A stretch of DNA of 28,140 bases from the IMG/VR virus record IMGVR_UViG_3300032770_000081, positions 1 through 28,140 of that record. The stretch is one strand, 5' to 3'. Positions 17,609-20,210 of this stretch are shown piece after piece; the first letter of the stretch is position 1; the number at the start of each line of letters is the position of its first letter. A program made the translations under genes and the position numbers. Source of the DNA: a virus. Under the pieces are notes generated by a model that searched no databases, was not told the origin of the DNA, and saw nothing but the letters and a program-made list of their open reading frames with translations.

Positions 17609-17616
17609 GAAGCCGC

Positions 17617-17645
17617 TTGCAACGTAATTACAGCGGCGCTATAAA
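17617..17645 (+). promoter_or_regulatory. Strong sigma70-like promoter driving a structured RNA
   Basis: TTGCAA (17617-17622), a 17-base spacer and TATAAA (17640-17645; 5/6 to TATAAT) make a near-consensus promoter. The expected start is about 17652, which is the first bases of a strong hairpin. It lies directly after the HTH_39 gene stop. Confidence 0.65.
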
Positions 17646-17651
17646 CGCTTC

Positions 17652-17910
17652 GGGCCCAGTGAACTTAATCACTGAGCCCGTAGGTCCGGTTAGCAGCCGG
17701 GCCGGAGCGATAGGGAGGAACTCCGGGTACGGGTATTTTGCCTGACCAACCTCCAAAGTCAAACCGGCCCGCCTACTCCGAATCTGGTGGAGGGGCACGC
17801 AGCCGTAGCGGGGGTCACCACCTTAAACAAGCCACCGTCGGCACGGGAACTCAGGGTCTGAGCTTCTCGTCCCGAAAGCTTGCTTACCCATGGGGGGTAG
17901 GGGGGCTTTT
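17652..17910 (+). ncRNA. Candidate structured RNA, about 260 nt, between promoter and terminator
   Basis: This 340-base gap between genes (17609-17948) has no convincing protein gene but dense pairing. From the predicted start: CGGGCCCAGTGA (17651-17662) pairs with TCACTGAGCCCG (17669-17680), one mismatch. CCCGTA (17677-17682) pairs with TACGGG (17728-17733), enclosing CCGG/CCGG (17686-17700) and CCGGAG/CTCCGG (17702-17726), a three-way junction. Further along, CCTCCA (17750-17755) pairs with TGGAGG (17788-17793), CGGGA/TCCCG (17844-17874) encloses CTCAG/CTGAG, and a terminator-like hairpin ends near 17910. It may be a free sRNA or a leader for the downstream genes. A 60-codon frame from a TTG at 17738 exists but lacks a placed ribosome site. 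Confidence 0.55.
17875..17910 (+). terminator. Terminator-like hairpin at the end of the structured RNA
   Basis: AAAGC (17875-17879) pairs with GCTTT (17905-17909) around CTTACCC/GGGTAGG (17883-17889 and 17895-17901, one G-T pair), ending in TTTT. The U-tract is short and partly paired, so termination may be partial, fitting an attenuator more than a full stop. Confidence 0.45.
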
Positions 17911-17948
17911 GGGAATCTAGGGTCTGTATCTCTTCGGAGGGATTTAAG

Positions 17949-18509: not shown

Positions 18510-18710
18510 ATGATCGAAGTAGGGATGGTGCTACCTGAGGGTTTAAGGATCTGTGGGGTCTGTCGAACTGCCAAGCACATGAGCGATTTCCATGGGTATG
18601 AGGTGGGCTCGAGGAAGGGAGCTCGGTATGAGTGTTTAACCTGTAAGCGACTGAGGCAGAACAGGGAATACGCGATCAGAAAGGGGAAAAAGGATGAGGG
18701 AGGGCTATGA
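18510..18710 (+). CDS. Zinc-ribbon protein, HNH-accessory-like
   Basis: A 66-residue protein with a ribosome site (AGGAAG, seven bases upstream). ICGVCRTAK (Cys15, Cys18) and YECLTCKRL (Cys42, Cys45) form a treble-clef-like zinc ribbon with a basic C-terminal helix (KRLRQNREYAIRKGKKDEGG). Similar sequences form the zinc half of HNH-type proteins; the catalytic His-Asn is not present, so it is called a binding protein only. It overlaps the next gene (ATGA), placing it in one unit with the antiterminator-like gene. The 76-base gap upstream holds a small inverted repeat (GTCGT, six bases, ACGAC) and no gene. Confidence 0.72.
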   Translation: MIEVGMVLPEGLRICGVCRTAKHMSDFHGYEVGSRKGARYECLTCKRLRQNREYAIRKGKKDEGGL

Positions 18711-19138
18711 AAGTCGGATTGGAATATCAAGAGCTTGAGCATGCCTTACGTCTCTGGGGGGCCTGGGAAGAAGAACATTACCTACAAGACTCATTGCCGA
18801 CCCAATCCAGCCATCTGATGATCTATTGCGACCATCCTCCGGGACACAAGATCCTTTGCGCTGAGATCGAGAAAGGCCTGTGGAAGCTCAGCCGGACCAT
18901 AGCTCAACTACCCCACAAGCATCGCGACATTCTTCTGGTCTGGTATGCCGTCAACATGAAGCCCACCGGGGGTTATTGGGACGCCAAAGAGAAGGCTAAG
19001 ACGATCGGTATCCGACTGAATGTGCTACGAATGCGGGTGACGAGAGCTCGTCGAGTCTTACATAAGAAAATCTTCTTGACTGATGGTTATCTCAGTAGTA
19101 CACAAGGCGCAGAGTGCATAACTGTCTCTGCAGCTTAA
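18707..19138 (+). CDS. Probable late-gene antiterminator / sigma-region-4-like protein
   Basis: A 143-residue protein. The C-terminal half, QLPHKHRDILLVWYAVNM, then AKEKAKTIGIRLNVLRMRVT and RARRVL, has the sigma-70 region 4 helix-turn-helix pattern seen in phage Q-type antiterminators and ArpU-like late regulators. The N-terminal part has a WGAWEEEHY segment and a DHPPGHKILC stretch that may bind metal. Position directly before the packaging and virion genes is the classical place for Q. It would act on RNA polymerase at a late promoter to read through terminators. The specific site is not identified. Confidence 0.78.
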   Translation: MKVGLEYQELEHALRLWGAWEEEHYLQDSLPTQSSHLMIYCDHPPGHKILCAEIEKGLWKLSRTIAQLPHKHRDILLVWYAVNMKPTGGYWDAKEKAKTIGIRLNVLRMRVTRARRVLHKKIFLTDGYLSSTQGAECITVSAA

Positions 19139-19805: not shown

Positions 19806-20210
19806 GTGGACTGGCGAGAAGGAAGAGGCAAAAGGATCGATCACCGGACGACCACTCTTGTCCCTGAGTCAGAGGGGATTAGAGCGCTACGCGATGCGAT
19901 TATCGTTGAACCGCTTGAATGGGTTCCCTCTAAGATACTCTGGGCTGCCTACACGGGCTTCCCTCTCCGGGGCCTTGTCAAAGCTGTTGGACCCGGCACG
20001 TACCCCAAGCGGTATGACGGCCCCAAGGGACGGCGTACAAAAATGTGGGAGTCAAAAAGTTTTAGGGCCACGGAAGTTAAAGCCGGCGACATCGTGGAGC
20101 TCGGAGGGCTTGAGCTGGGCGGATACATTGGGTTTACCACGTTCCTCTGGGGCTCCAAAGAGCATCTCATCTGCCGCGAAGAAGACATCGTCGGGATCGT
20201 GAATGATTGA
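19806..20210 (+). CDS. GroES/Cpn10-like co-chaperonin fold protein
   Basis: A 134-residue protein from a GTG one base after the upstream stop. ALRDAIIVEPLEWVPS (27-42), GLVKAVGPGTYP (56-67), EVKAGDIVELGGLELGGYI (90-108) and EHLICREEDIVGIV (119-132) follow the Cpn10 order: start strand, G-V-AVGPG, K-GD-V, and the final I-RE-DI-I strand pair. The mobile loop region (41-54) replaces the usual hydrophobic tripeptide and the base is longer. T4 encodes such a protein (gp31) to help fold its coat. A role with host GroEL in capsid folding is inferred, not shown. Confidence 0.7.
   Translation: MDWREGRGKRIDHRTTTLVPESEGIRALRDAIIVEPLEWVPSKILWAAYTGFPLRGLVKAVGPGTYPKRYDGPKGRRTKMWESKSFRATEVKAGDIVELGGLELGGYIGFTTFLWGSKEHLICREEDIVGIVND

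Follow-up and report, generated by a model that had tools for sequence, protein, structure and literature searches.

The window analysed here, a stretch of 28,140 nt corresponding to positions 1 to 28,140 of IMG/VR virus record IMGVR_UViG_3300032770_000081, contains a 340 nt gene-free gap (17609–17948) that extends from the end of an HTH_39 gene (17608) to the next gene start (GTG, 17949). The gap is flanked by the HTH_39 gene and a gene encoding a 60-aa zinc-ribbon-like protein, all on the plus strand, while the genes to its right lie on the same strand as the predicted RNA described below and form an operon of zinc-ribbon, nuclease, HNH-like and Q/sigma-like genes. Direct inspection of the sequence bore out the original prediction that a gap of this length, holding a promoter and hairpins, separates an early regulator from nuclease genes. 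The 143-aa protein encoded at 18707–19138 is kept in the related viral contigs L009 and L014 and exhibits weak similarity to sigma-70 region 4 (NCBIfam, E ~0.002); judging from its sequence, it is possibly a Q-type antiterminator, with no match in Pfam, PHROGs or PDB. AlphaFold modelling of the Q/sigma-like protein gave a poor result (pLDDT 49), which was left out of the argument. Further downstream, positions 19806–20210 encode a small conserved protein with weak similarity to the GroES co-chaperone (NCBIfam, E 0.0017), which is present in many terminase relatives.

A sigma-70-type promoter is predicted at 17617–17645 on the plus strand, with TTGCAA (17617–17622) and TATAAA (17640–17645) separated by a 17 nt spacer, and its geometry, as originally proposed for the window, is kept in all seven homologues. 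The site was omitted by a consensus promoter scan, which demands a T at position 6 that TATAAA does not provide; when scored in place, a promoter this good or better near a given point was found at 0.3 % of random contig sites. Hairpin H1 begins 5 nt past TATAAA in the window, and in each of the seven RNAs a TTGnnn-17-T[A/T]nnnn element ends 4–7 nt ahead of the first H1 base. The seven predicted promoters (TTGCAA/TATAAA, TTGATT/TATAAA, TTGCCT/TAGAAA, TTGCGC/TATAAA, TTGAAT/TTAATT, TTGCAA/TTAAAT and TTGACG/TAAAAC) have probabilities of 0.003 to 0.053 per site relative to random sites of the same contig, and their conserved geometry fixes the strand and the start of the RNA. The promoter position, six homologous gaps and the lack of a conserved frame indicate a predicted non-coding transcript of ~260 nt (17652–17912, plus strand). 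A frame check of the seven homologues, which addressed the possibility of a conserved protein frame across the gap, revealed no open frame spanning all seven RNAs, and the small ORFs are not common to them. The 264 nt RNA folds better than its dinucleotide shuffles (z = −3.1, with none of 200 shuffles as good). However, its reverse complement folds nearly as well (z = −2.9), so the folding energy alone leaves the strand undecided, and it is the promoter and covariation that decide.

The six homologous gaps, located in other viral contigs, bring the RNAs to seven and fall with the window into two subfamilies, subfamily I comprising the window, L009, L014 and L072, and subfamily II comprising L137, L010 and L015. 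The search started from relatives of the window phage's terminase; a nucleotide profile of the gap led to L009 and L014, L072 was found by the pattern of the second hairpin, the divergent L137 by a covariance model of subfamily I members (22.5 bits), and L010 and L015 by starting from L137. Reciprocally, L009 was found by the L137 profile and by the subfamily II model (21.8 bits, E ~0.01). Matches from both sides, together with position, support the assignment of the two subfamilies to one family. All seven are located at the junction of early genes and a nuclease operon, and each homologous gap lies upstream of nuclease/terminase genes that share its strand. The L072 record (IMGVR_UViG_3300037258_000427) contains the RNA, two HTH genes and a nuclease gene, yet no match to the window phage's terminase, which suggests that the RNA with its HTH and nuclease neighbours moves between phages as a module.

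The sample is small, and seven members in two subfamilies provide few independent changes. A recognizable copy is missing from some terminase relatives in profile and model searches, and the stretches fetched from the nearest isolated phages by terminase (Pam1, CBW1004C-Prop1 and Pan3) contain no such RNA according to the seven-member profile and model R2. Nucleotide searches of phage and plasmid collections returned nothing useful, an exact pattern matched none of the 84,980 bacterial and archaeal genomes scanned, and relatives of the neighbouring nuclease yielded no homologous gap. Scanning viral contigs for CCAAAGTCAA followed by CCGGCC gave 46 matches, of which the convincing ones were known members only. 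Models R1 and R2 were also run over complete records of further related viruses and over three bacterial genomes and detected no new member, a negative result that is weak evidence because R1 misses the subfamily II member G008. One further match, L020:17591–17704 (27.9 bits), lacks synteny and was left uncounted.

At the 5′ end of the RNA, hairpin H1 (17651–17680, plus strand) is found with different letters at the same place in all seven members. It had been described as a 12-bp hairpin at the predicted start; the hairpin is real, while its pairing consists of 11 pairs and one C–A mismatch. Hairpin H3 (17702–17726, plus strand), formed by CCGGAG (17702–17707) and CTCCGG (17721–17726), covaries, with GGAG/CTCC replaced by GGTG/CACC in L014 and by GGTA/TACC in L072. 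Within subfamily I, six pairs are changed on both sides, a count reached by 6 of 500 shuffles and supporting both H3 and the A:A′ helix described below, and slid structures score much worse. The position of the small hairpin H4 (CGGGT/GCCTG, 17730–17744, plus strand) is occupied by a hairpin of other sequence in most members. The covariation in homologues for which the original prediction asked is therefore present, and the CCGGAG/CTCCGG stem it listed is real and covaries across subfamily I. Of its other stems, CCCGTA/TACGGG would disrupt H1 and is supported by no homologue, and CTCAG/CTGAG within CGGGA/TCCCG was not recognized in homologues. The broader description as a multi-stem RNA holds as regards a structured RNA with covariation but missed the key feature, namely two mutually exclusive helices.

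Segment A (GGTCCGGTT, 17683–17691) is the strand common to these helices, all three segments being on the plus strand. It pairs either with segment A′ (AGCCGGGCC, 17695–17703), its hairpin partner according to double changes and a permutation test, or with segment D (AACCGGCC, 17762–17769), an alternative partner ~70 nt downstream. The conserved stretch CCAAAGTCAA at 17753–17762 (plus strand), which lies just before and extends into D, is near-invariant in subfamily I and has a related form in subfamily II. The A:A′ and A:D helices cannot coexist; each of the seven RNAs retains both, and either helix has at least four doubly changed positions. When aligned by hand, all sequences show A:A′ pairing between position −6 and U2, with one gap, and this helix is doubly changed at positions −6, −5, −3, −2 and −1, whereas the double changes of A:D affect −6, −5, −3, −1 and an inner pair, with an irregular position at −2 or −1. 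The A:D helix reaches 12 bp in L137 and is weakest in L014, where a better far partner lies at another site. It is very probable that a structured RNA exists in which two mutually exclusive helices are conserved.

The nature of the mismatches bears on whether these segments act as RNA or as DNA. All nine non-Watson–Crick oppositions in A:A′ are U–G, as RNA pairing predicts, and those of A:D are mostly U–G outside the one irregular position. Three related segments just downstream of HTH genes and close to a promoter might alternatively be inverted sites for a phage DNA-binding protein, such as a repressor or replication initiator, and such sites could change together with the protein; however, the U–G oppositions, the differing spacing of the sites and the further hairpins with changed letters (H1, H3 and H4) make a DNA element a very remote prospect.

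The possibility that one fold is functional, with the second complementarity a by-product of folding order or of GGCC-rich repeats in subfamily I, concerns the significance of the pairing itself. A′ and D are alike because both match A, and the GC-rich subfamily I offers several registers. Moreover, a loose motif of the A/A′/D shape, with wobbles and bulges allowed, is expected by chance about once per 7 kb (in 1.6 Mb the descriptor produced 232 matches, among which members were indistinguishable from chance), so the claim rests on covariation and a single sequence proves nothing. As a permutation test on the hand-made alignment favours native partners by construction, a test in which pairing was re-optimized after each partner swap was relied on instead; with five distinct sequences, the native arrangement ranked first among the 120 permutations for each helix. 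Compared with shuffled partner regions, pairing energies gave p < 0.05 in six of the seven RNAs for A:A′ and in five for A:D, with the subfamily I members not independent of one another. Subfamily II, with other and less GC-rich letters, still keeps both helices. Together with the permutation result, this renders a single functional fold quite improbable.

With either D or A′ blocked, the two predicted core states differ by no more than ~7 kcal/mol in any member. Left unconstrained, the core has a minimum-energy fold with A:D in L009, L137, L010 and L015, and A:A′ in L014 and, inside a longer helix, in L072, while the best fold of the window uses a third pairing, of GGCCGG with D, in which neither exclusive helix is complete. 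Near-equal energies of this kind would be the look of a bistable RNA, predicted energies being no proof.

A G-rich, terminator-like hairpin (GGGGGGTAGGGGGG at 17892–17905) occupies 17871–17913 of the plus strand, with a hairpin at the same place in the four subfamily I members. The 3′ hairpins of this subfamily have energies of −25.7 to −37.7 kcal/mol (−26.9 in the window) and two G runs on the 3′ side. The U tract is weak, short or inside the stem, with UUUU past the stem only in L072; in the window UUUU pairs within the stem. The element earlier described as a terminator-like hairpin ending in TTTT is accordingly a strong hairpin but no textbook terminator. In L010 the RNA ends directly against the start codon of a zinc-ribbon gene; the subfamily II counterpart, GGGAAAGTGGG, adjoins this codon and may form part of the ribosome site there. 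The output of the RNA may thus differ, with termination in subfamily I and translation start in subfamily II.

In the proposed mechanism, the sigma-70 promoter would start a non-coding leader of ~260 nt at ~17652. As the leader emerges, H1 would fold first, followed by A:A′ (state 1), and D, made ~70 nt later, could take the place of A′ as the partner of A (state 2), which would free A′ to extend H3. The balance of states would determine whether the G-rich 3′ hairpin halts RNA polymerase or the enzyme reads on into the downstream operon and, in subfamily II, perhaps whether ribosomes start. Comparison of the seven gaps demonstrates a conserved putative RNA, a conserved predicted promoter and two conserved exclusive helices; beyond this, we infer that the RNA is transcribed, that it folds in the stated order during transcription, that it acts in cis and that its states are coupled to the 3′ hairpin. 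No conserved pairing that couples the A/A′/D switch to the 3′ hairpin was found. The weak U tract and the third pairing in the best fold of the window also count against a cis-acting leader. The whole chain, in which strand exchange in such a leader heads the nuclease and Q/sigma-like operon, is therefore proposed tentatively, at somewhat less than an even chance.

The first downstream gene varies among the phages (zinc ribbon, T5orf172-like or unrelated), a variation that misfits control of one particular gene, whereas the position of the RNA at the operon head is kept; this combination favours an operon-wide effect, by attenuation or antitermination, or an independent RNA over a single-gene sensor. 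An independent small RNA, with a promoter and an end of its own, would act in trans on targets of the host or the phage, and its two folds would represent a folding pathway or an on/off state. Such an RNA would agree with the promoter predicted at an equivalent position in each of the seven members, the strong 3′ hairpin of subfamily I, the non-conserved downstream gene and the apparent mobility of the module in L072. On the other hand, the L010 RNA reaches the next start codon, with no space left for an end of its own, in most members the 3′ hairpin is not accompanied by a good U tract, and no conserved unpaired stretch longer than that at 17753–17762 is available as a seed, so that action in trans appears somewhat unlikely.

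No match to Rfam 15 was obtained in the window at the gathering threshold, in agreement with the earlier statement that no named RNA family matches. At E up to 10, the gaps of L009, L072 and the window gave nothing beyond sub-threshold matches, and at E up to 1 there was none in L137 or L015. A raiA-hairpin match (RF03059; 25 bits at 17670–17716, against a gathering score of 43.7) is absent from L009 and L072 and was attributed to chance, as were MIR815, CRISPR-DR21 and others at relaxed thresholds.

Among known systems, the yxjA purine riboswitch is a transcriptional riboswitch that works by cotranscriptional strand exchange (PMC9756952). Such riboswitches share with the phage RNA a promoter-proximal leader structure, conserved exclusive helices with a common strand (here A:A′ and A:D) and a hairpin near the 3′ end. 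In contrast, the RNA described here is phage-encoded, has no known aptamer or ligand, places the proposed exchange inside a conserved 5′ core, has a weak or paired U run and is not followed by a consistent class of downstream gene among the members compared.

The HK022 put RNA, with putL just downstream of PL, has ~70 nt and two stem-loops (PMC9378689). It resembles the phage RNA, by description rather than sequence alignment, as a structured nascent RNA near an early promoter that heads an early operon. A put-like function, in which the folded core would bind RNA polymerase and promote read-through of operon terminators without a protein factor, would fit a structured core that starts at the first transcribed base and keeps its position while downstream gene content varies. 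However, the core of ~120 nt (H1, A/A′/D, H3 and H4) contains exclusive helices and is directly followed by a terminator-like hairpin, and the Q/sigma-like gene hints weakly at a protein antiterminator, all of which makes this function improbable. By the features compared, the RNA would work most like the strand-exchange riboswitches, is situated like HK022 put, and is a member of neither group.

The lambda late leader (6S RNA, from pR′ to tR′) is likewise short, started from a promoter and ended by a terminator-like hairpin before phage genes, and a Q/sigma-like gene is also nearby in the window. To our knowledge, the lambda leader has no conserved fold. In the window, unlike in lambda, the RNA comes before the Q/sigma-like gene and stands in front of nuclease rather than lysis genes.

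From these comparisons, and on the evidence of covariation, the conserved promoter, the lack of a frame and the lack of an Rfam family, we conclude that the seven gaps represent structured phage RNAs of a new family in which strand exchange is conserved. They most likely serve as leaders that act in cis, in line with the regulatory RNA or leader first predicted. The family is previously undescribed, and we know of few decision-taking regulatory RNAs in phages beyond a few lambdoid examples. The retention by evolution of two incompatible folds across seven uncultured phages points to a switch, and an RNA whose sequence is kept able to fold in two exclusive ways is probably a small genetic switch. 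That it represents a phage-specific switch class, in which an early exchange from A:A′ to A:D would set the rightward operon without a phage protein and in response to a ligand, polymerase speed or temperature, is considered unlikely.

Additional elements accompany the RNA in individual members. At L009:3426–3475 the 3′ motif recurs as GGATCCGGATGGGAAAGGGGG followed by ATG, ahead of a nuclease-like gene that lies downstream of the RNA. The 3′ part of the RNA in L137, L010 and L015 contains a GUGGUUGACCAC-like hairpin with GGUUG, a repeat of the core of A that might form 5–6 bp with D and possibly link the switch to the 3′ end in subfamily II. On the reverse strand of the same three members (L137:3420–3456, L010:1430–1465 and L015:5370–5410), H1 and the adjoining A-rich stretch resemble an intrinsic terminator (GGGGGCGTTTT), which could stop antisense transcription too.
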